62,649 nucleotides of DNA from IMG/VR virus record IMGVR_UViG_3300042691_017208, positions 1 to 62,649 of that record; one strand, given 5' to 3'. Under the pieces are notes generated by a model. It saw only the letters and a program-made list of their open reading frames with translations. It was not told the DNA's origin and did no database searches. Source of the DNA: a virus. Below, piece by piece: positions 341 to 55,175 of the stretch. The position numbers and the translations under genes are program-made. The first letter of the stretch is position 1; every line of letters begins with the position of its first letter.

Positions 341-976
341 ATGATTAATTACCCAATAGGTGAATGGGAAACAGATTTTGAAATACCAGAAGACTTTGTT
401 TCAGAGTTCAATCATTTTGTTAAAGAAATAATGAAAGAAGAAACAAGCATAAGACATCCTCTATACGAAAGACTTTTTATACTATGGTCTGCTGCAAAGC
501 ATGCTTCTAAGCTAGAAGGAGATTTTGTAGAGTGTGGAGTATATGCTGGATTCACTTCTTACTTCATGGCTAAGCACTCTAAAACAAATATCCACCTATT
601 CGATTCTTGGGATGGTGTAACTGATTTTACAGAACATGATAATGAATATTATAAAGAAAATCCATTTAAGATACCAATGCATCATGCTGAAAAAACAATG
701 TCAGAATTTGATAATGTCGTTTTTCACAAAGGCGAATTCCCATTTGATTTTGATCAACTAGAAAAAATATCTCTATTACATATTGATGCTGATAACTACA
801 ATCCTACAAAGATTTGCTTAGAGCAACTATGGGATAAGATGGTTCCTGGTGGAATTGTAATAGTTGATTTCCATGATTCATGGGCAACTGGGGCAGAAAA
901 AGCAACTAAGGACTTTTTTGAAGGTAAAAGAGATCTTATCATGTTTAGGACTGGGAAATCTTTAATAATCAAATAA
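341..976 (+). CDS. TylF/MycF-like SAM-dependent O-methyltransferase
   Basis: This 211-residue protein resembles the TylF (macrocin O-methyltransferase) family of class I SAM methyltransferases. The SAM-binding motif FVECGVYAG lies near residues 62-70. The acidic segment HLFDSWDG is near residues 85-92. A Mg-binding-like stretch LLHIDADNYNPT and the strand GGIVIVDFHD follow in the last third. These are the usual TylF landmarks, and the length is close to the family core. The family methylates hydroxyls of sugars, and phage copies are often thought to modify surface glycans or virion sugars; the substrate here is unknown. The start has a good ribosome site (AAAGGAGA). A second, FkbM-like methyltransferase lies at 24506. 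Confidence 0.8.
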   Translation: MINYPIGEWETDFEIPEDFVSEFNHFVKEIMKEETSIRHPLYERLFILWSAAKHASKLEGDFVECGVYAGFTSYFMAKHSKTNIHLFDSWDGVTDFTEHDNEYYKENPFKIPMHHAEKTMSEFDNVVFHKGEFPFDFDQLEKISLLHIDADNYNPTKICLEQLWDKMVPGGIVIVDFHDSWATGAEKATKDFFEGKRDLIMFRTGKSLIIK

Positions 977-1712: not shown

Positions 1713-2447
1713 ATGGGAATACTGGACACAGTAACAAAGACTAACGAGTACGGGCAACATGGAATTCACATCTTTAAAAATTTTTTTACAGAAGAAGAGC
1801 TCGCACTTCTTGATACTTGGGTAGAAACAAGTTACAGTAGCTCTACTGATGTTTCTGGACACCTTACCGCAAAAAACTATTCCATTATAACCAATAGAGA
1901 ATCAGTTAGACCATATTTTACTAAGTTAAGAGAAGCAATTAAAACTAAGTGCAGCACAGAGACTTTGTTTATTGCTAGAGTAAAAGTTTTAGAGATTTCT
2001 CCATGGGAGTGGGAGGAGCTTGTTGATCCAGATTATGTTCCTACCGAAGAGCAGCTTGCTTCATGGGATAGGCCAATGAAAACTCTTAGTTATAATCTTA
2101 CAGAGGTTAGAGAAGCTGCATTGGCTTCAGTACCTTCTAACGGATACGCACTAGCCGACTTCGAAAGTGGAATTGTTTCTAATCCACTATTTTTAGATAT
2201 TTATCAGAATCCAATAGAGATTGATGCATATCATGCAATGGTAGTTTTGAACCCAGAATTTACTGGAGGTTCTGTTACTGTTAACAGCTCTATTACCAAT
2301 GAAGACGTTGTGTTAGATCTAAATCCTGGAGACGTATTGTTCTTTAATAAGAGCGTTTCTGGTGTACAACAAATTTCAAAAGTTTTAACTGGAAAAAGAC
2401 GTTGTTTTAATTTAGTACTAACTGAGGATAGAGCCTTTAGAGTTTAA
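1713..2447 (+). CDS. 2OG-Fe(II) oxygenase-fold protein, catalytic triad apparently lost
   Basis: This 244-residue protein has the prolyl-4-hydroxylase layout: an N-terminal 'xxxFFTEEELALLDTW' entry motif, and a C-terminal jelly-roll with VVLNPEFTGGSV, LNPGDVLFFN and a final RRCFNLVL strand. The iron-binding HxD expected before the VVLNPEFTGG strand is absent. The distal His that should sit in the 'HxVxPV' position reads SGVQQISKV. The basic 2-oxoglutarate-binding position is kept (GKRR). I infer a non-catalytic paralogue, perhaps a partner or structural protein. It is followed by an intact oxygenase gene after 5 bases. Confidence 0.6.
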   Translation: MGILDTVTKTNEYGQHGIHIFKNFFTEEELALLDTWVETSYSSSTDVSGHLTAKNYSIITNRESVRPYFTKLREAIKTKCSTETLFIARVKVLEISPWEWEELVDPDYVPTEEQLASWDRPMKTLSYNLTEVREAALASVPSNGYALADFESGIVSNPLFLDIYQNPIEIDAYHAMVVLNPEFTGGSVTVNSSITNEDVVLDLNPGDVLFFNKSVSGVQQISKVLTGKRRCFNLVLTEDRAFRV

Positions 2448-2452
2448 CGCAT

Positions 2453-3040
2453 ATGTCCATACATGTGCATGAAAACTTTATAGAAGGACAAGACTTAGAA
2501 AACATATTAGGGTTTAGCAAATCGTTTAGCCCCGAAGATAAGTTTCTTTGGGGTTATAACGATATTGTTAACTTAGAATATGAAAATAAAAATAACATTA
2601 TTGGTTCACTAGATAAGTGTGTGCTATTTTTGAACGAAGAGTTCTTAAAAAAATATAAATTAAAAAATGATTTAAAAGTAATTAATATATTTGGTGCAGG
2701 GTTGAGACCTGGGAAAAAGTATACTAGACATCAAGATAAAGAATATACATATGAAGGCAAAAAAGACTCAGATGTAGTATACACTGGATTACTTTATTTA
2801 AATGATGATTATGTTGGAGGAGAATTACTATTAGAAGATCATTCTTCTGATAGTGTAACAGGTGGGCATAAATTAATTAAGCCTAAAGCTGGAACTTTAA
2901 TATACTTTACAGAAGATGTCTATCATTCAGTAATGCCCGTTTCTGAAGGTATTAGATACAACATAGTTATGTTTTTTTCAGACACAGACTTGCGTAGACC
3001 TTTAGCTAGAAAGACTACACTAGAAAACTTTGGTTATTAA
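2453..3040 (+). CDS. prolyl-4-hydroxylase-like 2OG-Fe(II) oxygenase
   Basis: A 195-residue member of the P4H-like 2OG-Fe(II) oxygenase superfamily. The iron ligands are H93-x-D95 and H158, and R168 is placed to bind the 2-oxoglutarate carboxylate. The signature strands LLYLNDDYVGGEL and KPKAGTLIYF lie between them. The family uses O2 and 2-oxoglutarate to hydroxylate prolyl or other residues; the substrate here is unknown. There is no clear ribosome site, and the ATG sits 5 bases after the upstream stop, so translation may be coupled. The 3' end overlaps the convergent gene by 4 bases. Confidence 0.85.
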   Translation: MSIHVHENFIEGQDLENILGFSKSFSPEDKFLWGYNDIVNLEYENKNNIIGSLDKCVLFLNEEFLKKYKLKNDLKVINIFGAGLRPGKKYTRHQDKEYTYEGKKDSDVVYTGLLYLNDDYVGGELLLEDHSSDSVTGGHKLIKPKAGTLIYFTEDVYHSVMPVSEGIRYNIVMFFSDTDLRRPLARKTTLENFGY

Positions 3041-3699
3041 GAGTATTTATTATTGTCGTAAAAATTTGGTACCTTTAAAAATGCTGGTAACACATATCTA
3101 ATAGGGCCAGCACCAACATGTCTAACTCCATGATTAAACTCATCATTACCTGGGAAGACAATTAGTGTTCCAGGCTCTGGAACAATTTCAATGTTTTTGT
3201 TGGGCCAGAACACCTGACCATTTTTATAATCATCATGTATATATATGATTGCTGCATACTTAATTGATGGATCTGTGTGTTGATCTGTATGGGCTACAAG
3301 TTCCACCCCTTCTGGCATTCTTTGAAAAAAATAAAATCCAGAGCATATTAACTTTTCTGTACCTTGATCCATAATTTTTTGAAGTCGATTACTTACTTGG
3401 TGATGAATAGGGTTATCTGTAAATGCTAAGTTTTTATCGTGCCAGTTTTGTGTTACTTCGAATAGACCTTCTGCAACTAAATTTTCAACATCATCTCTTC
3501 CAAACTTAGCCATACAGAATTTAGCAAGTCCTTGCGTATACTGAATTTCCCAATCAGCTTGAGTAGCATTGTTTATTATTTCAAAATATTGTTTAATTTC
3601 TTCGTCTGTAACAAAATTTTTTACAAGCAATAATCCTTCTACTGGAGTTTCTACTTCATAGCCAGCAGATTCCATTTCTTTTTTGAGATATGTTGTCAT
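3037..3699 (-). CDS. prolyl-4-hydroxylase-like 2OG-Fe(II) oxygenase (leaderless)
   Basis: A 220-residue oxygenase on the minus strand. The triad is H137-T-D139 and H190, with R201 for 2-oxoglutarate. The core strands are AAIIYIHDDYKNGQV and PEPGTLIVFPG. An N-terminal 'FVTDEEIKQYFEII' segment matches the usual entry of phage P4H proteins. No ribosome site exists; TATAAT ends exactly six bases before ATG, so a leaderless mRNA is predicted. It runs convergent to the previous oxygenase and is separated from the leftward lysozyme operon by a terminator. Confidence 0.85.
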   Translation of the reverse strand: MTTYLKKEMESAGYEVETPVEGLLLVKNFVTDEEIKQYFEIINNATQADWEIQYTQGLAKFCMAKFGRDDVENLVAEGLFEVTQNWHDKNLAFTDNPIHHQVSNRLQKIMDQGTEKLICSGFYFFQRMPEGVELVAHTDQHTDPSIKYAAIIYIHDDYKNGQVFWPNKNIEIVPEPGTLIVFPGNDEFNHGVRHVGAGPIRYVLPAFLKVPNFYDNNKYS

Positions 3700-16754: not shown

Positions 16755-17900
16755 ATGGCAATTTCAAAAAGAAGAGGAACTAAATCCTCAGCACAAGATA
16801 ACTTTCTTGAGCCGTTAAATGTAACAAATCTTACAGCCGTTGATGTTGGAACTAATAGACCATATTTAGCTACAGCAGCAACAACACAAGCTGGTGCATC
16901 AGGCACTGGTGGTGCTGTAGATTTATCTTGGACATTGCCATCTAATTCTCCAGCAGCAACAAGTTATGACATAACAACTACACCAGCAACATATACCGCA
17001 AATACATCTTCAACAACCTATAGATTTGAAGGTTTAGTGTCTGGACAAAGCTATACATTTACAGTAATTCCAAAAAATAGTTCTGGTTCAGCAAAAACTC
17101 CTAATACAACATCATCTTCTGTTTCTGCAACAACAGTGCCTCAGGCGCCACAAAGCGTAACAGCCTCTGCCTCATCTGCTAATTCAAATACTGTTAGCTG
17201 GACAATTGGCGCAAATGGAGGAAAGCCATTATCTGCACATAATGTTTATGGATCAGACAACAACAACTCACTTGGTCTTTCTGCATCAGCTACAAGCGCA
17301 ACTATTAATGACCCAGGAGCAGCTCCAGGAGCACAGACATATTATGTTACAGCAGTAAATGCAAATGGAACTTCTGCTAACTCTAATAGCACTGGAAGCG
17401 TTACTACAATCCCGCCGTTTTTCCCATTCTTCCCACCGTTCTTCCCACCGTTCTTCCCATTCTTCCCACCATTCTTCCCACCATTCTTCCCACCATTCTT
17501 CCCACCGTTCTTCCCATTCTTCCCACCATTCTTCCCACCGTTCTTCCCACCATTCTTCCCACCGTTCTTCCCATTCTTCCCACCATTCTTCCCACCATTC
17601 TTCCCACCATTCTTCCCACCATTCTTCCCATTCTTCCCACCATTCTTCCCACCGTTCTTCCCACCATTCTTCCCACCATTCTTCCCATTCTTCCCACCGT
17701 TCTTCCCATTCTTCCCACCATTCTTCCCATTCTTCCCACCGTTCTTCCCACCATTCTTCCCAGGATTCGGACCGTACTTCCCATACTTTAAGGGACCATT
17801 CTTCCCAGGATTCGGACCGTTCTTCCCAGGATTTGGACCGTTCTTCCCGTTCTTCCCAGGATTCGGTGGCGGACCATTCTTCCCAGGATTCGGATACTAA
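16755..17900 (+). CDS. fibronectin-III tail protein with long Phe-Pro repeat tail
   Basis: A 381-residue protein in three parts. Residues about 22-127 and 131-218 are two fibronectin type III domains (VDLSWTLPS, YTFTVIPKN; NTVSWTIGANGG, YYVTAVNANG). Residues 220-381 are almost only Phe and Pro with occasional Gly, in FFPP and FFP units, ending with several PFFPGFGP units and the terminus PFFPGFGY. The same terminus ends the 51390 protein. The tract is very hydrophobic and cannot be an ordinary soluble domain; it may be an extended polyproline-like adhesive or membrane-interacting segment. It is the last gene of the fibre block and lies directly before the hydroxylase array. The tract's function is unknown. 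Confidence 0.75.
   Translation: MAISKRRGTKSSAQDNFLEPLNVTNLTAVDVGTNRPYLATAATTQAGASGTGGAVDLSWTLPSNSPAATSYDITTTPATYTANTSSTTYRFEGLVSGQSYTFTVIPKNSSGSAKTPNTTSSSVSATTVPQAPQSVTASASSANSNTVSWTIGANGGKPLSAHNVYGSDNNNSLGLSASATSATINDPGAAPGAQTYYVTAVNANGTSANSNSTGSVTTIPPFFPFFPPFFPPFFPFFPPFFPPFFPPFFPPFFPFFPPFFPPFFPPFFPPFFPFFPPFFPPFFPPFFPPFFPFFPPFFPPFFPPFFPPFFPFFPPFFPFFPPFFPFFPPFFPPFFPGFGPYFPYFKGPFFPGFGPFFPGFGPFFPFFPGFGGGPFFPGFGY
17409..17897 (+). repeat. degenerate tandem repeat encoding FFPP
   Basis: Units of TTCTTCCCACC(A/G), with shorter TTCTTCCCA variants, run for nearly 490 bases. Phe codons are almost always TTC and the + strand is strongly pyrimidine-rich. Units differ by third-position A/G, so slippage and point change both operate. 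The other frames stay open but read only His/Ser or Gly/Arg/Met repeats, which are artefacts. Confidence 0.9.
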
Positions 17901-17908
17901 TAAATTAA

Positions 17909-17933
17909 AAGTGGGGGAGTAAATCCCCCACTT
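17909..17933 (+). terminator. hairpin terminator after Phe-Pro gene
   Basis: AAGTGGGGGA (17909-17918) pairs perfectly with TCCCCCACTT (17924-17933) over a GTAAA loop. No long T run follows, but the stem is strong and placed 9 bases after the stop. Confidence 0.65.
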
Positions 17934-17938
17934 AGCTA

Positions 17939-17967
17939 TTGTTTATATATTTCGTATATGATACAAT
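17939..17967 (+). promoter_or_regulatory. promoter of the hydroxylase array
   Basis: TTGTTT (17939-17944), a 17-base spacer and TGA-TACAAT (TACAAT at 17962-17967) form a consensus-like promoter with extended -10. It starts the array independently of the fibre operon. The leader holds AGGAGA before the ATG at 17992. Confidence 0.6.
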
Positions 17968-17991
17968 TTACATACATGTACAGGAGATATT

Positions 17992-18696
17992 ATGGAATGG
18001 TATGATTTACCAAGATTAGAAAAAACAAAAACAAGATTAGAGTCTGAATTTATACAAGATGGTATAGAGGTTATTAATTTAGATTACGGCATCCACTTGT
18101 ATAGAAATGCAGTTAATAAAGATGACTGTAAAACCATTATAGATTTAATTGAAAATGAAATATCTTTAGGCATACCAAAAATTCAATGGAATGAAGCCAG
18201 TGTTAATGGTAAAGAAAGAACCACCCATGCAAGAAATTGTTATGATCTAAAATATAAAAAAGAAGCTCTTGGAACTTATATTCCTAAAAATGATGCTTTG
18301 GCAAAAGCTCATGACATGGTTAATGATAGATTAAATGTTGCATTGCAGCACTATGAAAGATTATGGCATTTTTCAATAAAGTATAAAGAAGCATTTAACT
18401 TTGTAAAATATATGCCAGGTGAATTCTTTAAAATACATGCAGACCATGGACCATTTTATACATGTACAGTTTCTGCAATAGTTTATTTGAACGATGACTA
18501 TGAAGGCGGGGAACTAGAATTTCCAAGACATGGATTAACAGTTAAGCCAAAGGCTGGAGACATTATGTTGTTCCCATCCAATTATGTATACGAGCATGCA
18601 TCATTAAATATAAGTTCAGGAATTAAGTATGCTGTAGTTATCATGATGGATTATAATGATTTATATCATAAATCAGAAAGTTCAGGCGGATATTAA
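17992..18696 (+). CDS. prolyl-4-hydroxylase-like 2OG-Fe(II) oxygenase
   Basis: A 234-residue P4H-like oxygenase. Iron ligands are H149-A-D151 and H202. K212 occupies the 2-oxoglutarate-binding position, as in collagen-type prolyl 4-hydroxylases. Core strands are SAIVYLNDDYEGGELEF and VKPKAGDIMLFPSNY. The N-terminal third (INLDYGIHLYRNAVNKDDC) is the usual entry segment. It begins the array right after the Phe-Pro fibre gene. It is followed by a DUF6065-like gene, a pairing repeated at 19461/20125. The substrate is unknown; prolines of the fibre tail are a candidate. Confidence 0.87.
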   Translation: MEWYDLPRLEKTKTRLESEFIQDGIEVINLDYGIHLYRNAVNKDDCKTIIDLIENEISLGIPKIQWNEASVNGKERTTHARNCYDLKYKKEALGTYIPKNDALAKAHDMVNDRLNVALQHYERLWHFSIKYKEAFNFVKYMPGEFFKIHADHGPFYTCTVSAIVYLNDDYEGGELEFPRHGLTVKPKAGDIMLFPSNYVYEHASLNISSGIKYAVVIMMDYNDLYHKSESSGGY

Positions 18697-19459
18697 TAAA
18701 ATAATTTTTACAGCATTTAGACCATGGCTAACAAAATTTAGCCCATCAGTGCCAGGAACTACTCATTCTGTTATGCCTAAATGGTACAAGGATGCCGACA
18801 GGTTTGCTAAAAACCCAATCAATGGTGAATATTACAAAGCTACCAAGGAAGTTTGTCCTTTTCCAAAAGAGGGTACAAATAATGATTACGGGTATATCCC
18901 AACTTGGAAAGCTTGTCCAGCAGTTATGGATGCATTTATTACTGGTTATGTTTTTAAGACTCCATGTGATATAACATTCTATAAAGATAAAAATGGAAAA
19001 ATTAATGTAAAAATAGATGATAAAAAAAATGCAGGTTTTTGTACAACAAGAGATCCGATGCCTCAGTTTGAGCATCCAACTGGTTATTATAAAGAACATT
19101 TTGCGTGGTATCCAGATTGGGCATTAGAAGTTCCTGAAGGGTATAGCTGTTTATATATGACTCCAATGAATAGATTTGACTTACCGTTTTTAAATACAAC
19201 TGGAGTTGTAGATAATGATAGTGTCCATTTATCTGGCACATTTCCATTCTTTTTGGTTGAAGGATGGGAAGGAACAATTCCAGCAGGAACACCGTATTTA
19301 CAGATACTTCCATTTAAAAGAGAAGACTGGCAGCATGAGGTAAAGTTTTTGTCACAAAAAGATATATATGATAAAATGACAGACAACATGAAATTCTACC
19401 GTCAACCAGATGGCGGAGTATATAAAAGCAAGGTATGGAGTAGGAGAGAGTACAAATAA
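18656..19459 (+). CDS. conserved protein distantly related to the DUF6065-like neighbour
   Basis: A protein of up to 267 residues without a known function. Landmarks include PKWYKDADRF, CPAVMDAFITGYVFKTPCDITF, PEGYSCLYMTPMNRFDLPF and WEGTIPAGTPYLQILPF. The same order of landmarks, more diverged, occurs in the 20125 protein, so the two are probably paralogues. Each follows a Lys-type hydroxylase, which suggests linked function. The ATG at 18656 overlaps the upstream gene by 41 bases and lacks a clear ribosome site. An ATT at 18692 or ATA at 18701, after GGCGGA, would give a start like 'NKIIFTAFRPW' and should be considered. Confidence 0.65.
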   Translation: MIYIINQKVQADINKIIFTAFRPWLTKFSPSVPGTTHSVMPKWYKDADRFAKNPINGEYYKATKEVCPFPKEGTNNDYGYIPTWKACPAVMDAFITGYVFKTPCDITFYKDKNGKINVKIDDKKNAGFCTTRDPMPQFEHPTGYYKEHFAWYPDWALEVPEGYSCLYMTPMNRFDLPFLNTTGVVDNDSVHLSGTFPFFLVEGWEGTIPAGTPYLQILPFKREDWQHEVKFLSQKDIYDKMTDNMKFYRQPDGGVYKSKVWSRREYK

Positions 19460-19460
19460 A

Positions 19461-20135
19461 ATGCAAACTTGGTCATCAAAAGAGTCTCTAGGGAATGGTA
19501 TATTTGTCTATAGAGATGTTATAAAAAAAGAAATTGATGTAATAGGCAGACTAGAAAACATTCTTAGTCCAGTAAATTCTGGCGCTAAGTATGCATGGCA
19601 GCCAGCGTATGTTGGGTATCAAGAACTTATGCCAGATTATAGAGACTGTGTAGATTTTAAATTCAAGAAGACCGACATTCAATTTGATAAAAGCGAAGAG
19701 TCCTCAAAACTTCAAAAATTGTGGCAAGACGTATTTGATGTACAATCTCCAGCCGTAAATGATTATAGAAAAGAACATAATCTTATGGACCTTAAATACT
19801 GGGAAGCATTTAATTTTATTAAGTATGGACCAGGACAACACTTTATGGAGCACCACGATCATGGATACTCATATAATTGTACTGTCTCTTTAGTTGCATA
19901 TGTTAATGATGATTACGATGGTGGAGAATTATATTTCAGGTTGCAAAACCTGAATATTAAGCCAAAAGCTGGAGATTTATATATATTCCCTTCTAACTAC
20001 ATGTACCCACATCAAGCAAAGCCAGTTATATCGGGAACAAAATATTCAATTGTTACTATGTTAGATTATAGTGGCAAGTTCCACTCACAAGAAATGTATG
20101 ATCCTAAATGGGAGAATGAGCCAAGTGTTAGTTAA
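19461..20135 (+). CDS. prolyl-4-hydroxylase-like 2OG-Fe(II) oxygenase
   Basis: A 224-residue oxygenase close to the 17992 protein. The triad is H131-H-D133 and H184, with K194 at the 2-oxoglutarate position. It shares the EAFNF(I/V)KY and VKPKAGD/IKPKAGD motifs and the FPSNYMY element with its paralogue. The ATG at 19461 lies two bases after the upstream stop with GGAGAG upstream. An earlier in-frame ATG at 19410 would overlap the upstream gene by 50 bases and is less likely. Its last bases contain the start of the DUF6065-like gene. Confidence 0.87.
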   Translation: MQTWSSKESLGNGIFVYRDVIKKEIDVIGRLENILSPVNSGAKYAWQPAYVGYQELMPDYRDCVDFKFKKTDIQFDKSEESSKLQKLWQDVFDVQSPAVNDYRKEHNLMDLKYWEAFNFIKYGPGQHFMEHHDHGYSYNCTVSLVAYVNDDYDGGELYFRLQNLNIKPKAGDLYIFPSNYMYPHQAKPVISGTKYSIVTMLDYSGKFHSQEMYDPKWENEPSVS

Positions 20136-20841
20136 AGCCTATAAACATGCTGGACATAGGGTAAAGATAGAGCAGACTAAAGTAAAAAGAGACTGGATGG
20201 ATGCTACTGATAATGCTCATGCATACAAATGCTTTCCAGTTAGTTTAGCTAATACAATTGGATGGTCGATATCATTACTAGACGATGTCGAGTTTATTTG
20301 GGATGGAATATCTGACTCAAGTTCGGAACACGTAAAGGTTTTAAAGGATCCAGCTGGAGCCTGTAGTACACAACGCTCTAATGGCACAATAAGTTTTTAT
20401 ACTGGTATCTTTTTTGAGACAGATAAAGACACGACAATGCTACAAATAGTTCCTCCTAATTACTTTATAGATGGTGCTGCGCCATTTACAACTCTTATAT
20501 CCACATCTTTTTTTCCAGAAGCAATTCCAGTTGCATGGAAAATAACTAGACCAAACACAGTAATAACTATACCAGCTGGTACTCCAATAGCTACTTTTAT
20601 TCCAATATCATTGGCTAAATACAATGAGGTAGAGTTAGAAATTCAGGATAAGGTGTGGCCAGAGCTTTCTTGGAAACAAAAAGAAGAAAGAAACAAGGTC
20701 TGGCAAGAAATAACTATGCAGGGCAAGTTTACTAATTTTTATAGAGATGGTGTAGAGTATGATGGAACAAAAATTGGTGACCATGAATTAAAGGCTATAA
20801 GGTTAAAAATTAACGATTTTTCTACAAAGATAGAGGAGTGA
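20125..20841 (+). CDS. DUF6065-like protein
   Basis: A 238-residue protein of unknown function resembling the DUF6065 family: KRDWMDATDNAHAYKCFPVSLANTIGWSI, then an F.WDG strand, and ITIPAGTPIATFIPISL. Beta-rich, no membrane segment. The GTG at 20125 has GGAGA nine bases upstream; the ATG at 20116 touches that ribosome site and is less favourable. It overlaps the hydroxylase gene by 11 bases, implying coupled translation. Members in other genomes are often small soluble proteins near modification genes, but I know no biochemical role. Confidence 0.7.
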   Translation: MLVKAYKHAGHRVKIEQTKVKRDWMDATDNAHAYKCFPVSLANTIGWSISLLDDVEFIWDGISDSSSEHVKVLKDPAGACSTQRSNGTISFYTGIFFETDKDTTMLQIVPPNYFIDGAAPFTTLISTSFFPEAIPVAWKITRPNTVITIPAGTPIATFIPISLAKYNEVELEIQDKVWPELSWKQKEERNKVWQEITMQGKFTNFYRDGVEYDGTKIGDHELKAIRLKINDFSTKIEE

Positions 20842-20847
20842 TATAAT
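20839..20847 (+). promoter_or_regulatory. extended -10 promoter, leaderless gene
   Basis: TGA-TATAAT overlaps the end of the DUF6065-like gene (its TGA stop at 20839-20841 is the TG extension) and is followed by six bases, ATTAAT, then ATG at 20854. A leaderless mRNA is predicted. Confidence 0.65.
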
Positions 20848-20853
20848 ATTAAT

Positions 20854-21612
20854 ATGGAAAAGATGAATGTAAATCATTTAGATCAGGTGACAAAATCTAT
20901 CACCCCATCAGGATTTTTTGGGACCAGCAAAGATAATATTGTTGAACTAGAAAACTTTATGACAGAAGAAGAGATAGACTTTTTGGAAAAATCTGCAAAA
21001 GGTATAACAATTTGGGATTATACAGAAAGCCATGTCAATGAAAATGGAACCACAATATATGATGCTAACTATTGGAAAGATAGAGTGGCAACTAGACCAT
21101 CATTAGATAAGAATGATCCAAAAATTGGTCCAGTTATTGAAGGTCTATTTAAAAGACTTCAGCCAATTATAGAAGACTTTTTTAATGTTAGAGTACAGCC
21201 AACTGGACAAACAATTGTAAGATGGTTACCAGGACAATTACAAAAACCTCATGCTGATAAAGAACTACATGATGGTCCAGATGCAGGACTGCCAAATGAT
21301 TTTCCATATTACGACATAGCAAGTTTATTTTATTTAAACGATGACTACGAAGGTGGAGAAATCTACTGGCCTCTACAAGGAGTTAGAATTAAGCCTAAAA
21401 GAGGAGCAGCATACTTTTTCCCAGGAGACATGAATTATATACATGGCGTCACCGAGATAAAAGGAAATATAAGATATACAGTTCCTTTCTTTTGGACCAT
21501 ATTAGAACACACTGGAGAAAATAAGCCTGAGGCAGGTAAAGAGTATTATAGGACGCTATTAGATCCAGAAATGCGTGGAAAGAATCTTTATGAAAGTGTT
21601 TACGAGGGGTAA
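20854..21612 (+). CDS. prolyl-4-hydroxylase-like 2OG-Fe(II) oxygenase (leaderless)
   Basis: A 252-residue oxygenase with triad H133-A-D135 and H197, and R207 for 2-oxoglutarate. Core strands are ASLFYLNDDYEGGEIYWP and IKPKRGAAYFFPGD. An insert rich in Asp/Gly/Pro (residues about 136-150) separates HxD from the next strand. It heads a second block of five oxygenase genes with its own leaderless promoter. The substrate is unknown. Confidence 0.87.
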   Translation: MEKMNVNHLDQVTKSITPSGFFGTSKDNIVELENFMTEEEIDFLEKSAKGITIWDYTESHVNENGTTIYDANYWKDRVATRPSLDKNDPKIGPVIEGLFKRLQPIIEDFFNVRVQPTGQTIVRWLPGQLQKPHADKELHDGPDAGLPNDFPYYDIASLFYLNDDYEGGEIYWPLQGVRIKPKRGAAYFFPGDMNYIHGVTEIKGNIRYTVPFFWTILEHTGENKPEAGKEYYRTLLDPEMRGKNLYESVYEG

Positions 21613-21614
21613 AA

Positions 21615-22358
21615 ATGTCTAATTATACAAGATTAACTCAAGATATTTTGTTGTATGAAAACTTTTTGACTAAAGAGGAGTCCCAAGCAATTATTGATGT
21701 TATGGAAGCTCAGGTTAAAAATGAAAAGTTGTCTTGGACACCAATTACATTTTATGAATCTTATTCTTCCGTTCTTCCGCAAGACGGTGACGAAGAACTA
21801 GAGCAATTCGGATTGCCTTCTGATTTTTTCTCTGTGCTTCAGAATAGAATAGTTGAAGCAGTTGCAGAGGTTCATGGAAAACAATTTTCCGATATTCACA
21901 AGATTGGTTTTCATGCTCAGAAGTGGGAGCCAGGAGCCTTTGCAAAAGAACATTCAGACAATACAGATTTAGAAGGCAACACTGGACCATTTGAAAGAAG
22001 CAGGTACGCTGCCTTCCTATACCTTAATGACGAGTTTGAAGGCGGACTACTAAAGTTCAATAAGCAAGATGAATTGATTTATCCTAAGACAGGTTCTCTA
22101 GCTGCTTTTGCAGGCGGGTTTGATAATACTCATGAGGTTACAATGATTACTTCTGGCATTAGGTACACGCTTGGATCATTTTGGGACGACAGAGACCAGA
22201 GTGCTTACCCTCAAGAAACAATTGATGCCTGGGACGCTGAAATGAAAAGAATTAGAGAAGAGCAAGAAGTGATAAAGGCTGGTTGGCAAGATGCACTAAA
22301 AGAAGGATATAAGTTAGATCCAGACGGAAATAAATATAAAATGGAGGAAAACGAATAA
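21615..22358 (+). CDS. prolyl-4-hydroxylase-like 2OG-Fe(II) oxygenase
   Basis: A 247-residue oxygenase. The triad is H113-S-D115 and H173, and R183 binds 2-oxoglutarate. Core strands are AAFLYLNDEFEGGLLKF and YPKTGSLAAFAGG. A Glu/Lys-rich C-terminal extension (about residues 195-247) is helical and not part of the catalytic fold. The ribosome site GAGGGG precedes the ATG. Its stop overlaps the next ATG (TAATG). Confidence 0.87.
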   Translation: MSNYTRLTQDILLYENFLTKEESQAIIDVMEAQVKNEKLSWTPITFYESYSSVLPQDGDEELEQFGLPSDFFSVLQNRIVEAVAEVHGKQFSDIHKIGFHAQKWEPGAFAKEHSDNTDLEGNTGPFERSRYAAFLYLNDEFEGGLLKFNKQDELIYPKTGSLAAFAGGFDNTHEVTMITSGIRYTLGSFWDDRDQSAYPQETIDAWDAEMKRIREEQEVIKAGWQDALKEGYKLDPDGNKYKMEENE

Positions 22359-23122
22359 TGCAACTAGAAGAAAGATTACATGAAAATGTTTACATGTATT
22401 CGGATGTAATTGAGAATCCTCAAGAAATTATTGATTTAATCAATAAGCTGGATTCTGACGAAAGAGTTCACAAGGTTATTCCTAAGTGGAACAACTGGAA
22501 CTCAAGCAGCAGAGATGGAAATATCTTTGGTAAGAAAAAAGATTTCAATCTAGCTGAAGTAGAAGGTTTAGATCCAGAAGTTAGAAAGGATGTAGACTTA
22601 ATTATTTCTACGATTAGAAATGCAATTAGAAATATTGCAGAAGCTTTTATTGTAGACAGAGGTCTGAAGGGAGAGCCAAACGTTTCTCCTTTCGTAGGTA
22701 TTTCTAAATATATTCCAGGTTGTGCCATGGGAGCACATTTTGACAGACAGGCTGGAGATAACAGTTTAGAGTGGTCAATTATCATTTATTGGAACGACGA
22801 TTATGAAGGTGGAGAAATATCATTTGTAATCAGACCAGAAGACTTAAGACTAGAGGTTAATGGTCATTTGAGACCACCAGACGACGCTCTAGATCCAAGA
22901 ACTAAAGACATGGTTACATTTACTGCAAAGCCAAAAGCTGGTAGCGCACTAATATTCCCATCTACTGACCCATACAAGCATCAAGTTCATATTATGAAAG
23001 AGGGAGAAAAATATATTACTCCAGGTTTCATATTTGTAGATGGCTATGTTGTTGGTGGACCAGGAGGTCCTTCAGAGGAGTACATCAAAGCTTATCACGA
23101 GCAAATGAATGGAATGATGTAG
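22358..23122 (+). CDS. prolyl-4-hydroxylase-like 2OG-Fe(II) oxygenase
   Basis: A 254-residue oxygenase with triad H127-F-D129 and H208, and K218 at the co-substrate position. Core strands are SIIIYWNDDYEGGEISF and KPKAGSALIFPS. A charged insert of about 30 residues (near 160-190) lies between them and may shape the substrate groove. The C-terminus has a GGPGGPSEEY loop. It is translated immediately after the previous gene. Confidence 0.87.
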   Translation: MQLEERLHENVYMYSDVIENPQEIIDLINKLDSDERVHKVIPKWNNWNSSSRDGNIFGKKKDFNLAEVEGLDPEVRKDVDLIISTIRNAIRNIAEAFIVDRGLKGEPNVSPFVGISKYIPGCAMGAHFDRQAGDNSLEWSIIIYWNDDYEGGEISFVIRPEDLRLEVNGHLRPPDDALDPRTKDMVTFTAKPKAGSALIFPSTDPYKHQVHIMKEGEKYITPGFIFVDGYVVGGPGGPSEEYIKAYHEQMNGMM

Positions 23123-23920
23123 TTGTCTTTTGATAACATTGAAGTGGAAGTTCTTCACCCTAAAATTTGGGTTTTTAAAAACATACTAACTCAAAGTGAT
23201 GATTTAATAAATTATCTAAGGGGTGAAGAATTTTCTAATCAATGGATGCAATGGTATTCTTTCGGAGAAAAAATTTATCTTCCTATAGGAGGATCTAGTT
23301 TTGAAAAATTTCCATCTGATTTAGAATGGTCTGAAAAAATAACGCTTGAGTCTTCTAAAAACAAATCACTTCAAGAATTTACCGATTCTTTTTATTACAT
23401 AACAAAAAAATATACTGAGTCTCAAGGAATAGTTTTAGATAATTGGGAGTTTGGTAGCCCAGATTTGTGTTACTATAATGAAATGTCTGGTGTTTCTGGA
23501 ACCCAGGCCATGAATTATCATACTGATTATCAGCTAGAAAGAGATTACGAGCCAGGCATGAAATTTGAAACAACTTCTGTGTTTTACCTAAATGATAATT
23601 ATGATGGTGGAGAAATATGTTTTAAGGTATTCGAAGAAGACTATTCAAAAGTTTTACACAGAATATCGTACAAACCATCAAAGGGAGATGCAATAATTTT
23701 CCCATCCAAGCACCCCGTCTATCATGGAGTAAAAATTGTTGAAAACGGAACTAAGTACATAATTAGAAGTTATTGGAAATATTGGCAGGACGGAACAGAA
23801 GAATACTACAATGATAAAAACTCTATGGGCGTAGAAGAGTTTGAAGAATTTTTAGATCAAAGACACAAAGACATTTGGAATGAAATTGTTAGTAAAACTC
23901 ATGATGATGTAACAGGATAA
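23123..23920 (+). CDS. prolyl-4-hydroxylase-like 2OG-Fe(II) oxygenase
   Basis: A 265-residue oxygenase. The triad is H133-T-D135 and H201, with K211 for 2-oxoglutarate. Core strands are TSVFYLNDNYDGGEICF and KPSKGDAIIFPSKH. The TTG start directly follows the upstream stop and has only a weak ribosome site, so re-initiation is likely. The next in-frame Met (residue 42) would remove the entry segment. Confidence 0.82.
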   Translation: MSFDNIEVEVLHPKIWVFKNILTQSDDLINYLRGEEFSNQWMQWYSFGEKIYLPIGGSSFEKFPSDLEWSEKITLESSKNKSLQEFTDSFYYITKKYTESQGIVLDNWEFGSPDLCYYNEMSGVSGTQAMNYHTDYQLERDYEPGMKFETTSVFYLNDNYDGGEICFKVFEEDYSKVLHRISYKPSKGDAIIFPSKHPVYHGVKIVENGTKYIIRSYWKYWQDGTEEYYNDKNSMGVEEFEEFLDQRHKDIWNEIVSKTHDDVTG

Positions 23921-23922
23921 TC

Positions 23923-24525
23923 ATGAATATAAATAAACTTTTACCAGACATTTATGAGGTTGAAAATTTTATAACAGAAAAAGAACAGTCTCTTATTCTA
24001 GACCAGATAAAGTTACTAGATGAAAGTTACTGGTATGCAATGGATAAGAATGCATACGAGTTTAATTTTTGGGATGGCAAAATAATAGATCCAATGGTTC
24101 ATGAACTAAATGATAATCTTTACGATGGCATAAATGTTAAATGTAAAAAGATTTTTGATTCGTTTTTAGAGATTACTGGAATAAATATTGCCAGATACAC
24201 TAAAGATGATTTTTTAGGCACACACAGGGATTATTGGAAATACGATGAAGATTATCATATAAGATACGGTCTTGTTATATATTATAATGATGATTACGAG
24301 GGCGGAGAGATAGAGTATCCAGAACTAAATCTAATACATAAGCCAAAAGCAAGGTCCATGTTGATTCATGGTGGAAACATATTACATGGAACGCTGCCAG
24401 TTAAAAGTAATAATTATAGATATATATCTACAATGTTTGTTAAAGGATCTAAAGATAAACCTGCAGTTCTAAGCAAGGAACTGTTTGATGGAATAGAGGA
24501 ATCAGATGGAACAATTTATAGATAA
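23923..24525 (+). CDS. prolyl-4-hydroxylase-like 2OG-Fe(II) oxygenase
   Basis: A 200-residue oxygenase, the shortest of the array. The triad is H101-R-D103 and H155, and R166 is the co-substrate Arg. Core strands are GLVIYYNDDYEGGEIEYP and KPKARSMLIHGG; here the usual Gly after KPKA is Arg. AGGATA precedes the ATG. It overlaps the FkbM-like gene by 20 bases, so hydroxylase and methyltransferase are made together. Confidence 0.86.
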   Translation: MNINKLLPDIYEVENFITEKEQSLILDQIKLLDESYWYAMDKNAYEFNFWDGKIIDPMVHELNDNLYDGINVKCKKIFDSFLEITGINIARYTKDDFLGTHRDYWKYDEDYHIRYGLVIYYNDDYEGGEIEYPELNLIHKPKARSMLIHGGNILHGTLPVKSNNYRYISTMFVKGSKDKPAVLSKELFDGIEESDGTIYR

Positions 24526-25108
24526 AAGAAACTTTATAAGTTCTTCGGACTCATTTGCACTAGACATCCTGAATTATAAGAGGGATGGATACTATGTTGA
24601 AATGGGTTCAGCAGACCCCATTAAGGGAAATACTACTTATAGAATGGAAAAAGATTACGGATGGAAAGGACTAGGGTTCGACTTAAACGAACAGCATGCT
24701 AAAAACTATAACTCGGTTAGATCCAATCCATGCCTAGTAGAAGACGCAACTAAATTTAATTACCTAAAGTATTTTGAAGAAAATAATTTTCCAAAACAAA
24801 TAGATTATCTTCAAATTGATATAGAGAGTCCAATGGACAGAGGCGGGAGACCTCAGCATCCGATAGGACAACCGCTTTTAGGTTTAATTGCTTTGCCACT
24901 AAATCATTATAGATTCACTGTCATTTCTTTCGAGCATGAGTTTATAATTCATTATAAAAATGCTTCTTTGAGAGATGCACAGAGAGAAATTTTAGATAGC
25001 CTCGGCTATTCATTAGTTTGTAAAATTGGCCATGAAGATTGGTGGGTTGACTCTACAGTTATTCCTTACCAAGACTACAAGTGGTACTCTAGATTTGAGT
25101 CGCCATGA
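24506..25108 (+). CDS. FkbM-like SAM methyltransferase
   Basis: A 200-residue protein with the FkbM-type class I methyltransferase pattern: GYYVEMGSADPIKGNTTYRMEKDYGWKG (SAM motif I and following strand), FDLNEQHAKNY, VEDATKFN, then IDYLQIDIES and a late VISFEHE strand. Family members O-methylate sugars or small molecules. It overlaps the last hydroxylase gene, so it may act on the same target. AGAGGA lies 5 bases before the ATG. Confidence 0.7.
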   Translation: MEQFIDKRNFISSSDSFALDILNYKRDGYYVEMGSADPIKGNTTYRMEKDYGWKGLGFDLNEQHAKNYNSVRSNPCLVEDATKFNYLKYFEENNFPKQIDYLQIDIESPMDRGGRPQHPIGQPLLGLIALPLNHYRFTVISFEHEFIIHYKNASLRDAQREILDSLGYSLVCKIGHEDWWVDSTVIPYQDYKWYSRFESP

Positions 25109-51389: not shown

Positions 51390-54300
51390 ATGAGTTGGTG
51401 GAGAAAGGCTAGTCCTACCGATACTGGCAGCCATAATATAAACGGTTGGATCCAAATGAAAAGTATTTGGAGAAAAGCCTCACCTCAAGATGAAGCAAAC
51501 TCTAATGCAAGTCAAAATCCGTGGGTAATTGATGGATGGCTAAAAATAAAAAGTGCTTGGCGACTAGATTCAATAGTAAATGGTGTTAGAAATTGGGTAA
51601 GAATATTTTCTGGCACTAATCTTCCAACTCCTAAAATTCCATACCCAGAGCTATACTATATTTGGCCAGATGGTTTTGAAACAATTGATAGTCCAATCAA
51701 TGGGTCAAGCATGTATGTTACAAGAGGATCTTGGACAGAAGAGCCAGAAGAATTTAGATTAAGAATTCAAGAGCTTGCACCAGGAGGAACATGGTCTGCA
51801 TTATATGATTTTACTAAAATTTATGAAGAATATTTAGAGTCTCAGTCAACAAACAAATTCCCATCAGATGCAAATGCGGCATCTAGACCAGTTATATCTA
51901 AAACTAAAACTAGGCAAGGGTATAAGTTTAGAGGAAGGGTTGATGCAAAGACTCCAGGAGGTTTAGAAAACTTTTATATAACTCCAGAATCAATGCCTAG
52001 AATTGACTTCTACATAGCAGACTTTATTGTGTATGACGAAGAATCTGACGGAGCTACATTTAGCTGGTCTTACGCAGCACTTGCTACAGGCAATACCGTA
52101 AGTGACAATTTAGACATATTTTCTCAAAAACTTAATGTTTATGACGAATTAGGTGAGTTATTGATGTCAATTCCAGTAACCACCCCAACAACTACATACA
52201 TATTAACTAGCCCACTTCTTGAGCCAAATAAGATTTACAGTGTTGAGTTAGAGGTTGTTGGAACAGATGGTTATACTGAGACAGATGATAAAACTATAGA
52301 TTATGCTTATGTGGACTTAGAGACTATTATAGACGAACCAGTAAATGTTACACCACCAACTCTTACCCTTCAATCTGGAATAGAAAACAAAACAGGTTCA
52401 ACTTATAGGCTTTCTTCTGGAGAGTGGACAAACGAACCAACAGAATTTAGATATCAGTTAGAGTTAAATAATGCAGCTGGAACCGTGCTAGCTTATTACC
52501 CATCTTCTACTGGTTACACTTCAGAAACTTATTTCGATTATCAATTTACTAGCCCAACTACAAATACAGTTTCTGGATCTGTAATAGCAAGTAATGGGGC
52601 TGACAGCCTTCCAGCATACTCAAACTCTATAGGACCAATTACTCAACTTCAGTATACTATAACTTATGAGGAGCTTGGGGGTACAGTAGTATCAGATGAT
52701 ATTGTAAATGCAGGAAGCAGTGTATTTTTGCCAACTACCTCTAGGCAAGGTTACATTTTTAATGGATGGTACACAGAGCCACTAGGTGGTGGCACTTATG
52801 TTGGTGGAGGAGGCCCAACTCCTACATCATACACTCCAACTGCAAGTATAACTCTTTATGCTAGCTGGACAGGAATAGAGTATACAGTAACGTGGAATAA
52901 AAATGATGGAACTTCAGACTTTACTTCTGATACTGTTATTTCTGGAACCACAATATATGCACCAACGCCCTCTTCTAGAGAACATTATAATTTCACTAGA
53001 TGGAGAAATCCACAGTCTGGTGGAGACCCAATATTTCTTAATGCTGGTGATGCGTGGATAGTAACATACTCATTTCAATTTTATGCACAATGGGTTGCAA
53101 AAACTTATACTGTTACATTTAATTATGGCTCAGGAACTGGAACTCCAGCGACAAGATCAGTTCAATATCCAGGAACAGTAACTTTACCTACTCCAGATTC
53201 AAACGCAGACTATATTTTCAATGGATGGTACACTGGTCCAAACGCAACGGGAACTTTTGTCGGAGGAAGCGGGCCAACACCAACACAGTATCAGCCAACA
53301 AGCAATATAACGCTGTATGCAGACTATACAATTGCTCAGCGTACAATAACATGGAATGCCAACGGAGGAACGGGAGGAGGAACTACTGGACCGTTCAATG
53401 CAGGGACAGCTCATACTGCGCCGTCACCAGGTACGAGAGCAAACTATGCATTCTTATATTGGAGAGATTCTATTTCTGGAGACTTTGCCTACCAAGTTTC
53501 AGACGGAGGAAGTTTTGTTCCACCATTTAGTGGTATGACTTTCTATGCTAGATGGTCTTTAAATCAATATACAGTTTCATATAACGGAAACGGTGGAACA
53601 CCAACTAGAACTTCAGATATTGTGAATGCAGGATCATCAATCACATTGCCTTCAGCTTCAAGAGATGGCTACGTTTTAGATGGCTGGTACACTGCTGCTA
53701 CTGGAGGAACATTTTTAGGAAATCCAGGGTCATCATATACACCGTCTGCTTCAGTTACTATATATGCTAGATGGTCTGTTGTCACATACACAGTAACGTG
53801 GAACGCAAATGGTGGCACCGTTAACCCAACATCAAGCTCAGGAGTTTTGGGTCAAGTTGTGACTGCACCTACTCCCACCAGAGACGGATATACTTTTGTT
53901 TATTGGAGAAATCCATCCTCTGGAGATATGCTTTACAATATATCAGCAGGAGCTAGCTGGTCTATAAATGGCAGCATAACTTTTACTGCAGTTTGGTCAA
54001 TAGCCCAGTACACAGTATCTTTTAGTGCAAATGGTGGAACTGTTAGTCCATCTTCTAGCACCGTGAATGCTGGATCTTCAGTCACCTTGCCAACACCAAG
54101 CAGAGACGGATATAGTCTTAATGGATGGTACACACAGTCTTCTGGCGGCACCTTTCTTGGTCAACCTGGTACAAGTTACACTCCAACTTCCTCAATTACC
54201 ATTTATGCACAATGGGCAATAACACAATATACAATAAACTGGAATGCCAATGGAGGAACGGGCGGAGGAACTACTGGACCGTTCAATGCAGGAACCTCAC

Positions 54301-55175
54301 ATACCGCACCATCTCCAGGAACAAGAAGTGGCTATGCATTCCTTTATTGGAGAGATTCAATTTCAGGAGATTTTATTAATCAAGTTTCTGATGGAGGAAG
54401 TTTTGTACCTTCTGGAAATACAACTTTTTATGCTAGATGGTCTCAAAATACATTCACATACTATGTTGGAACTTCAACATGTAATGTTTTGTCGGGATGT
54501 TATTCATCATTACCTTCAGCAAGCGGACCATTTGATGGAGTTGGATCTATGCCGACTGATATTACAGAGGGCCCATCTAACGCTAGAGTAAAAACTGTTT
54601 ATAGATCTACTTATGCTGATGCACTTGCTGCGGCTGCCAATGCATCTTGTGTTAATTGCACACCAGCACCGTTCTTCCCGCCCTTCTTCCCGCCTTTCTT
54701 CCCACCGTTCTTCCCTCCATTTTTCCCTCCGTTCTTCCCACCATTCTTCCCAGCACCAAGTGTTTACTATATAGGAACTTCTACATGCAACGTATCATCT
54801 GGTTGCTACTCTAGCCTTCCATCTGTTAGTGGGCCATTTAACGGAACTATGCCATCAGATACCACAACTGGAGGAACAACTGCCAGAGTTAAAACTGTAT
54901 ATAGATCTACAGAGGCAGAAGCGTTATCAGCAGCAGCAAACGCATCCTGCATTAGCTGCGCCCCAGCACCGTTCTTCCCTCCGTTCTTCCCTCCGTTCTT
55001 CCCACCAACATTTGGTCCGTTCTTCCCACCGTTCTTCCCACCGTTCTTCAAAGCACCAGCACCGTTCTTCCCTCCATTCTTTGGTCCGTTCTTCCCACCA
55101 TTCTTCCCACCAACATTCGGACCATTCTTCCCACCAACATTTACAACCCCATTCTTCCCAGGATTTGGATACTAA
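51390..55175 (+). CDS. InlB-repeat tail protein with Phe-Pro repeat tail
   Basis: A 1261-residue modular adhesin-like tail protein. The start has repeated W(R)RKASP/NGW units typical of tail tips. Beta domains follow to residue 420. Residues about 420-1020 are eight Listeria-Bacteroides (InlB B-type) repeats with patterns such as NANGGT and GY.F.GWYT; two of them are almost identical in the GGGTTGPFNAGT region. Next is a Cys module, a (FFPP)n tract, a second near-identical Cys module, and a second (FFPP)n tract ending PFFPGFGY. Each Cys module has CNVxSGC and CxxC. The end matches that of the 16755 protein. It is the last tail gene. Confidence 0.75.
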   Translation: MSWWRKASPTDTGSHNINGWIQMKSIWRKASPQDEANSNASQNPWVIDGWLKIKSAWRLDSIVNGVRNWVRIFSGTNLPTPKIPYPELYYIWPDGFETIDSPINGSSMYVTRGSWTEEPEEFRLRIQELAPGGTWSALYDFTKIYEEYLESQSTNKFPSDANAASRPVISKTKTRQGYKFRGRVDAKTPGGLENFYITPESMPRIDFYIADFIVYDEESDGATFSWSYAALATGNTVSDNLDIFSQKLNVYDELGELLMSIPVTTPTTTYILTSPLLEPNKIYSVELEVVGTDGYTETDDKTIDYAYVDLETIIDEPVNVTPPTLTLQSGIENKTGSTYRLSSGEWTNEPTEFRYQLELNNAAGTVLAYYPSSTGYTSETYFDYQFTSPTTNTVSGSVIASNGADSLPAYSNSIGPITQLQYTITYEELGGTVVSDDIVNAGSSVFLPTTSRQGYIFNGWYTEPLGGGTYVGGGGPTPTSYTPTASITLYASWTGIEYTVTWNKNDGTSDFTSDTVISGTTIYAPTPSSREHYNFTRWRNPQSGGDPIFLNAGDAWIVTYSFQFYAQWVAKTYTVTFNYGSGTGTPATRSVQYPGTVTLPTPDSNADYIFNGWYTGPNATGTFVGGSGPTPTQYQPTSNITLYADYTIAQRTITWNANGGTGGGTTGPFNAGTAHTAPSPGTRANYAFLYWRDSISGDFAYQVSDGGSFVPPFSGMTFYARWSLNQYTVSYNGNGGTPTRTSDIVNAGSSITLPSASRDGYVLDGWYTAATGGTFLGNPGSSYTPSASVTIYARWSVVTYTVTWNANGGTVNPTSSSGVLGQVVTAPTPTRDGYTFVYWRNPSSGDMLYNISAGASWSINGSITFTAVWSIAQYTVSFSANGGTVSPSSSTVNAGSSVTLPTPSRDGYSLNGWYTQSSGGTFLGQPGTSYTPTSSITIYAQWAITQYTINWNANGGTGGGTTGPFNAGTSHTAPSPGTRSGYAFLYWRDSISGDFINQVSDGGSFVPSGNTTFYARWSQNTFTYYVGTSTCNVLSGCYSSLPSASGPFDGVGSMPTDITEGPSNARVKTVYRSTYADALAAAANASCVNCTPAPFFPPFFPPFFPPFFPPFFPPFFPPFFPAPSVYYIGTSTCNVSSGCYSSLPSVSGPFNGTMPSDTTTGGTTARVKTVYRSTEAEALSAAANASCISCAPAPFFPPFFPPFFPPTFGPFFPPFFPPFFKAPAPFFPPFFGPFFPPFFPPTFGPFFPPTFTTPFFPGFGY
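54669..55172 (+). repeat. two Phe-Pro coding tracts around a duplicated Cys module
   Basis: FFPP-coding tracts at about 54669-54752 and 54969-55172 flank the second Cys module (54760-54965). The first Cys module is at 54450-54668. Codons are TTC/CCA/CCG/CCC/CCT, slightly more varied than in the 17409 tract. The second tract is interrupted by PPTFGP and FKAPAP elements. Confidence 0.85.

Follow-up and report, generated by a model that had tools for sequence, protein, structure and literature searches.

The closest described counterparts of the system reported here are the prolyl 4-hydroxylases (P4Hs) of the virus PBCV-1 (vCPH) and of the alga Chlamydomonas (P4H-1), which act on proline-rich repeat proteins. 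A study of Baltic Sea viruses calls the use of P4Hs by viruses cryptic and cites hydroxyproline in PBCV-1 proteins (PMC9301287). T4-like cyanophages carry other genes of the 2-oxoglutarate (2OG)-Fe(II) oxygenase superfamily, usually 1 to 5 in cultured representatives, with 24 open reading frames (ORFs) in cyanophage S-SCSM1, counted there without a tested function (PMC9602691). Two further papers propose a role for cyanophage 2OG genes in 2OG/nitrogen signalling or DNA repair (PMC3037559) and assign the 2OG enzymes of a cyanophage gene cluster to polysaccharide decoration or a secondary metabolite (PMC7824862). Here we analyze an IMG/VR virus record (IMGVR_UViG_3300042691_017208; 62,649 b, GC 37%), the whole of which is called the window, where a series of P4H-like genes is preceded by a tail-region gene whose product has a long Phe-Pro tract at its end (16755-24525). 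We consider it probable that this region is a protein-maturation cassette, whose dedicated P4H-like series hydroxylates prolines of the Phe-Pro tract.

As in the viral and algal cases, the candidate substrate is repetitive and proline-rich, but it is a tract of Phe-Phe and Pro-Pro dipeptides instead of collagen or Ser-Pro, and unlike in PBCV-1 and algae, the enzymes form a conserved phage operon of several orthologous members with partners of the DUF6065 family. Collagen-like phage tail fibres also have a repetitive, proline-rich tail segment, whereas the tract of the window is (FFPP)n without Gly-X-Y. The Pfam collagen model has no match in the 16755 protein, its sole match, below the cut-off, being the GFFGPP dialect of a related locus (L203). 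The titles and starts of abstracts listed from the open PMC literature (lists of at most 10 to 20 rows, bioRxiv preprints not included) yielded no description of a Phe-Pro tract/hydroxylase system, and no paper on hydroxyproline in virions or on DUF6065 was found among open PMC papers. The genes of the cassette and the outlying copies are the following:

16755-17900, plus strand: tail-region protein, proposed substrate (ORF of 381 amino acids, aa; fn3 4e-11; C-terminal Phe-Pro tract)
17992-18696, plus strand: 2OG-Fe(II) oxygenase, slot a, P4H-like (PF13640 5e-11; HAD149-H202-K212)
18656-19459, plus strand: DUF6065-like protein (phrog_7084 2e-32; aligns with DUF6065 relatives)
19410-20135, plus strand: 2OG-Fe(II) oxygenase, slot b (PF13640 9e-15; HHD148-H201-K211)
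20071-20841, plus strand: DUF6065 protein, predicted dUTPase-like fold (PF19541 3e-35, 122 bits against a curated cut-off of 26.6)
20854-21612, plus strand: 2OG-Fe(II) oxygenase, slot c (PF13640 3e-6, over cut-off; HAD133-H197-R207)
21615-22358, plus strand: 2OG-Fe(II) oxygenase, slot d (PF13640 4e-9; HSD113-H173-R183)
22358-23122, plus strand: 2OG-Fe(II) oxygenase, slot e (PF13640 5e-9; HFD127-H208-K218)
23123-23920, plus strand: 2OG-Fe(II) oxygenase, slot f (PF13640 3e-10; HTD133-H201-K211)
23923-24525, plus strand: 2OG-Fe(II) oxygenase, slot g (PF13640 1e-7; HRD101-H155-R166)
1713-2447, plus strand: degenerate 2OG-like ORF (aligns with the enzymes, without HxD)
2453-3040, plus strand: outlying 2OG-Fe(II) oxygenase (PF13640 7e-13; motif intact)
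3037-3699, minus strand: outlying 2OG-Fe(II) oxygenase, slot i by tree and slot orders (PF13640 4e-8)

PF13640 was found above its curated cut-off at nine places in the window, and all nine enzymes have the HxD motif, the distal His and a Lys or Arg at +10 or +11; in known P4Hs, a Lys/Arg lies about 10 residues past the distal His. In profile comparisons of the sequences, P4Hs come closest among solved structures: 5iax (1.8e-11), 5hv0 of Bacillus anthracis (1.9e-11) and 5c5t of PBCV-1 (1.8e-10). Slot a, the only enzyme modelled (AF2, pLDDT 80), has peptidyl-prolyl hydroxylases as best fold matches (6f0w, Z 18.9; 3gze, Z 18.7; 4iw3, Z 18.6), the top ones (PHD, algal P4H and P. putida P4H) covering Z 18.4-18.9. 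Among them, 3gze is the Chlamydomonas P4H-1 with a (Ser-Pro)5 peptide, while PBCV-1 vCPH (5c5t) is matched at Z 17.5, the HxD...H...[K/R] arrangement being shared with the enzymes of the window. A preliminary description, made from the window's sequence alone, had called the enzymes P4H-like and named proline as the family's best-known substrate, which agrees with the profiles and, for slot a, with the fold. It had also counted seven intact P4H genes directly behind the tail gene; the seven are intact, but "directly" omits the interleaved 18656-19459 and 20071-20841 genes, and the start given for slot b (19461) is an internal ATG of the ORF 19410-20135. The two intact copies and one degenerate copy that it reported at 1713-3699 were recovered: 2453-3040 and 3037-3699 keep the motif, whereas 1713-2447 is devoid of HxD and gave no Pfam hit at E 0.01.

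As previously read, about 160 residues at the end of the 16755-17900 protein form a Phe-Pro tract. This protein is regarded as a tail protein because its neighbors match tail-fibre PHROGs and it has a weak PHROG match of its own ("major tail protein", 1.5e-4).

The linkage between the array and the tract was examined in the 50 longest of 80 records retrieved through the capsid gene. PF13640 is matched in 32 of them and the array is present in 29, the other three having one gene each (G009, G021, G022). Two arrays have too little upstream DNA to be judged (527 b in G031 and 138 b in G036), and all the 27 determinable ones have an upstream Phe-Pro gene, 26 within about 1.2 kb and one at 5.5 kb (G006); this count includes G043, whose tract was missed by the ORF rule and was read at the contig edge. 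The DNA pattern [FY]FPP[FY]FP matches only 23 of the 50 records, and eight array phages at first appeared to be devoid of a Phe-Pro tail. These candidate exceptions were rejected after reading the upstream genes, since all eight carry variant dialects, (SFFAPP)n, (GFFGPP)n or (FFPPGFFSPP)n. A homologue of the N-terminal part of 16755 is recognizable in seven of these regions, and the other (L208) has a partial gene only. Arrays without a tract, which the preliminary description had set in advance as evidence against its proposal, are therefore absent from the 27. Four relatives without the array (G010, G026, G032, G042) were read for variant tracts, and neither a tract nor a 16755 homologue is found on their contigs, which are fragments and could have a tract elsewhere; other genes lie upstream of the LamG-like gene, at the place of the window's array. 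Four records have the tract and no array (G013, G020, G021, G022), all of them on contigs ending near the capsid gene, before the usual place of the array. A Fisher test of 27/27 against 0/4 was set aside, the rows being related and the contigs fragmentary.

The same association was seen when the search started from the enzymes. Using an alignment of the first two hydroxylases and ignoring the tail, we retained the 80 top-ranked among at least 563 loci; an upstream Phe-Pro gene was found in 70 by the automatic rule, mostly at less than 1 kb and at up to 3.8 kb when there are intervening genes. Three more loci have the tract, two on inspection (L242 and L249, the latter beginning inside the tract) and one by DNA pattern (L061), which gives 73/80. 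The seven loci that show none are six with less than 0.8 kb upstream and L251, which begins inside the C-terminal domain of a tract-type protein. The co-occurrence of array and Phe-Pro gene foreseen in the preliminary description thus holds in both collections.

Starting from the tract (FFPPFFPPFFP), at least 120 stretches were found; of the 50 records examined among these 120, 47 have a PF13640 match (46 above the cut-off). A downstream region of 5 kb or more is available for 47 of the 114 tract ORFs, and in 36 of the 47 a 2OG gene on the same strand follows within 5 kb. A first background test for 2OG proximity is not taken as enrichment evidence, as its loci were centred on tracts beside arrays and 28% of the other ORFs lay within 300 b of a 2OG gene. 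The N-terminal parts of the tract proteins form separate clusters, several of them beside 2OG genes, and the tract is found on various N-termini (fn3, PASTA and others) with 2OG or DUF6065-family genes nearby. Since the N-terminal domain varies and these genes are still close, it is the tract, and not any single domain, that the enzymes accompany.

These data also bear on the possibility that the genes are only co-located. Regions of tail fibres gather host-range and decoration genes, neighboring genes are inherited together, and 2OG clusters without any tract do exist (below), so that the enzymes could have a glycan, the host surface or some other protein of the tail as their target. We consider this unlikely, given that the tract protein swaps its N-terminal domain and its dialect and yet stays near the cassette, and that the four array-less relatives read show no tract on their contigs.

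For specificity, another 2OG gene (L216 type) was used as the query, and 79 loci were recovered, 44 of them with at least 9 kb. In these 44, the tract is present in 9 of 10 loci with a DUF6065-family gene and in 2 of 34 without it (Fisher 7e-7, shared ancestry ignored); the tenth, tract-less locus (L397) begins inside the DUF6065-family gene. Where three or more 2OG genes are clustered and no DUF6065-family gene is present, the tract occurs in 0 of 9 loci. On the other hand, in a separate lineage (L356-L364) the tract is accompanied by a pair of DUF6065-family genes and by only one 2OG gene, one 2OG gene also being present in the whole records G059 and G078; this lineage perhaps represents a minimal form of the system. 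For these reasons, the tract accompanies DUF6065-family genes plus at least one hydroxylase, and not hydroxylase number. The expectation of the preliminary description that the number of hydroxylases tracks the tract fails on the 0/9 clusters, on S-SCSM1, with many 2OG genes and no tract by DNA pattern, and on the single-2OG lineage. Two kinds of loci may be recorded here: five-gene 2OG clusters located in different genomic contexts and lacking both a DUF6065-family gene and a Phe-Pro tract (L401, L410, L414, L396), and the arrangement of the different lineage, with a Phe-Pro protein, two DUF6065-family genes and one 2OG gene, which is also visible at L349:7835-14019.

The two DUF6065-family proteins of the window belong to one alignable family, with about 15% identity to each other. 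No Pfam match was obtained for 18656-19459 at E 0.1, although its family is included in PHROGs (phrog_7084). For the 20071 protein, all the 50 PDB matches listed for the predicted model (pLDDT 67) are dUTPases (Z 8.9-9.8).

The enzymes of the array are conserved by position. In a tree of 92 enzymes from 15 genomes, the grouping is largely by operon position, with a few long branches unplaced. In the 42 long loci, which extend for 8 kb or more beyond the start of the first gene, the DUF6065-family genes and slots a, b, c and d are always present (42/42; slots a and b partly by search selection), followed by slots e (35), g (21), f (19) and i (19). Slot i lies inside the array in these 19 loci and is outlying in the window (3037-3699). 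In the group with FFxPP dialects, L201, L202, L203 and L205 have no slot a in the tree, and some arrays have two copies of one slot. The catalytic motif pattern is kept in 440 of the 453 classified enzymes, summed over slots. The array thus has a fixed order, conserved slots and constant partners, and its enzymes are mostly old, non-redundant orthologues instead of recent copies. This conservation is compatible with different enzymes acting at different positions.

The same conservation could be read as a sign of a broader or different chemistry on the tract, with several oxidations (e.g., of Phe and Pro) followed by O-methylation or sulfation, resembling the processing of ribosomal peptides. 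In addition to the mostly non-redundant slots, the alternation of Lys and Arg among slots at the putative 2OG-binding position favors it, as do genes for a sulfotransferase (Sulfotransfer_2), an Asp/Asn beta-hydroxylase, a methyltransferase-like protein and a luciferase-like monooxygenase that some phages have between the tract gene and the array. However, these accessory genes occur in few loci only, slot a is closest in fold to peptidyl-prolyl hydroxylases, and the observed dialects retain PP. We regard this reading as rather improbable and keep proline hydroxylation as the preferred one. Examples of luciferase-like monooxygenase or sulfotransferase genes in that place are found at L251:3180-4175, L249:563-1249 and L247:5893-6675. 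The window itself has two methyltransferase genes:

24506-25108, plus strand: FkbM-like methyltransferase (weak) at the array end (Methyltransf_21 E=0.019, below cut-off)
341-976, plus strand: TylF-like methyltransferase, cassette link not shown (PF05711 2e-13)

Homologues of the former are also at the array end in L209, L218, L347 and L354.

The window encodes a further Phe-Pro protein, far from the array:

51390-55175, plus strand: second Phe-Pro protein, possible second substrate (ORF; Flg_new repeats 4e-82; shorter Phe-Pro stretches)

Its repeats are located at 54667-54752 and 54963-55160, and both tract proteins have the same C-terminus (...PFFPGFGY). The pattern FFPPFFPPFFP has 20 matches in the window against none in 100 shuffles. 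Across phages the dialects vary (FFPP, FFPPHFPP, SFFAPP, GFFGPP, FFPPGFFSPP), with the aromatic residues and PP kept. In the 16755 tract (17424-17762), Phe is encoded by TTC in 60 of 60 codons, while six other genes of the window use TTT 170 times and TTC 38 times, and an alternative open frame spans the tract (17359-17922). Both features would fit a slippage-prone DNA repeat without protein function. Nevertheless, the mixed synonymous codons of the 51390 tract and the altered dialects preserve the amino-acid pattern, which makes a mere DNA repeat extremely improbable. In G005, G003 and the window, the sharing of one dialect by both tract proteins of the genome looked striking. It was tried as a further line of evidence and was not supported, since in a k-mer test with 8 pairs without homologous N-termini (G005 pair left out) the median was 0.79 against 0.76 in the null.

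Some other forms of tract proteins were observed. After the tract, many Phe-Pro proteins run into a Hint/intein-like domain (sub-threshold Pfam matches to PT-HINT, Hint_2 and Intein_splicing), as in L216:2243-6841, L040:6071-7393, L109:3566-6481 and L067:2140-3861, and by eye, with no Pfam match, in L203:7734-9119; this domain might serve to cleave the end of the tail or to attach it. At L214:10108-14184, a single 2OG gene adjoins the gene of a tail-region protein that has an (NTI)n tract, a similar Hint-like end (by eye) and no Phe-Pro tract. Short (FFxPP)n proteins of 116-150 aa ending in FK are present in loci with DUF6065-family and 2OG genes (L382:4723-5175, L386:4824-5240, L389:3523-3873), with an N-terminus that is PASTA-like by eye only, those of L382 and L386 having no Pfam match; a similar short tract protein in L298 does match PASTA. 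An FFPP search in 84,980 bacterial and archaeal genomes gave 17 stretches, and long phage-type tracts were found in four loci of metagenome-assembled genomes (L298, L302, L309, L310), with 2OG genes in three of the four. We take these four as phage contigs.

From the linkage and the conserved motifs we infer the following course for the proposed proline hydroxylation. The tail-region protein would be synthesized with its long C-terminal tract, which is very hydrophobic and consists of Phe-Phe and Pro-Pro dipeptides. Before the tail is assembled, or while it is, a fixed P4H-like series (core b, c, d and usually a, with e, f, g and i varying by phage) would hydroxylate the prolines of the tract, each enzyme being responsible for particular positions or for one step. 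The one or two DUF6065-family proteins, which constantly accompany the series, would perhaps present the tract as it emerges or hold the enzymes, and methyl- and sulfotransferases would probably decorate the new hydroxyls in some phages. The product would be a hydroxyproline-rich, more soluble, stiffer and extended tail segment, probably displayed on the virion for adsorption. A more elaborate version, which we advance only tentatively, is a virion maturation line similar to that of ribosomally synthesized and post-translationally modified peptides, with 5-8 mostly non-redundant dioxygenases, 1-2 DUF6065-family presenters and, in some phages, tailoring enzymes (methyl-, sulfo- and other), turning the C-terminal Phe-Pro polymer into a new material, hydroxylated and decorated, which would serve as the adhesive tip of abundant freshwater actinophages.

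Several observations weigh against proline hydroxylation of the tract by the series. The weakest point is that a monotonous tract has no obvious need for seven different enzymes; this surplus would be explained naturally by enzymes each specific for a step or a position, although this is conjectural. Tracts are found with no 2OG gene on the contig in G013, G020, G054, G077 and G095, all of them possible fragments, the contigs of G013 and G020 stopping at the capsid gene, short of the site where the array would lie. In 11 of the 47 tract ORFs with 5 kb downstream, no same-strand 2OG gene is present there, and tract genes of the 51390 type have no adjacent enzyme (0/2), nor have some other types. 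Close relatives of the L216-type 2OG gene (L365-L379) have the tract in only 2 of 15 loci, and paired tract proteins of one genome do not share dialects above chance. Finally, the linkage counts are not independent because the phages share ancestry, the 79 slot-b proteins forming 38 clusters at 90% identity, 19 at 80% and 5 at 70%.

The comparison with cyanophages concerns both the number and the arrangement of the enzymes. The preliminary description considered nine enzymes in one phage far beyond the usual, which is overstated in view of S-SCSM1, where, besides the 24 ORFs counted by its authors, we obtained 13 PF13640 matches, 9 above the cut-off. S-SCSM1 is also matched by slot b, at 33% identity in the best-ranked row, and no Phe-Pro tract was found in it by DNA pattern, which dialects could escape. 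The superfamily is common to both. For auxiliary 2OG genes of cyanophages we took a scattered arrangement without a linked proline-rich substrate as characteristic, a criterion of our own that derives from one genome and two papers; the genes of the window are instead clustered, in fixed order and linked to a tract. The many unexplained 2OG genes of cyanophages would agree with an auxiliary metabolic role, the dioxygenases altering the 2OG or nitrogen status of the host as proposed for T4-like cyanophages (PMC3037559). Cyanophage papers see these genes mainly as metabolic, or as repair genes (PMC3037559, PMC9602691). For the window we consider such a role very unlikely, since a fixed order beside a tail-region gene, a P4H-like fold and constant DUF6065-family partners would not be expected from it, and the S-SCSM1 copies are mostly scattered.

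Concerning the hosts, the best-ranked matches of the major capsid protein are Streptomyces phages (Faust, Sham and Coruscant; 58% identity over 99% of the query), and WhiB genes are present in 12 of 35 related records, although none is found in the window. These sequence similarities indicate that the hosts are probably Actinobacteria. The three Streptomyces phages resemble the window virus in this related capsid protein and differ in the cassette: tblastn against 50,697 isolate phage records gave no match for the N-terminal part of 16755 or for the DUF6065 protein 20071 (18656 was not searched there). Relatives of the capsid gene are found on at least 598 IMG/VR stretches, and the carriers of the cassette are abundant uncultured freshwater phages. 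Freshwater actinophages have been described, and the main text of that paper has no word beginning with oxygenase or hydroxylase (PMC6802176).

While 2OG-Fe(II) oxygenases are common and unexplained in phages, here they have a named candidate substrate a short way upstream, and the locus offers a directly testable case of a tail-region protein modified after translation by a dedicated phage operon. It also gives a first functional lead for DUF6065, whose family members may serve as a marker that tells tail-modifying hydroxylases apart from the remaining 2OG genes of phages. The linkage of the array to the Phe-Pro tail suggests a chemical remodelling of part of the tail by the viruses themselves.

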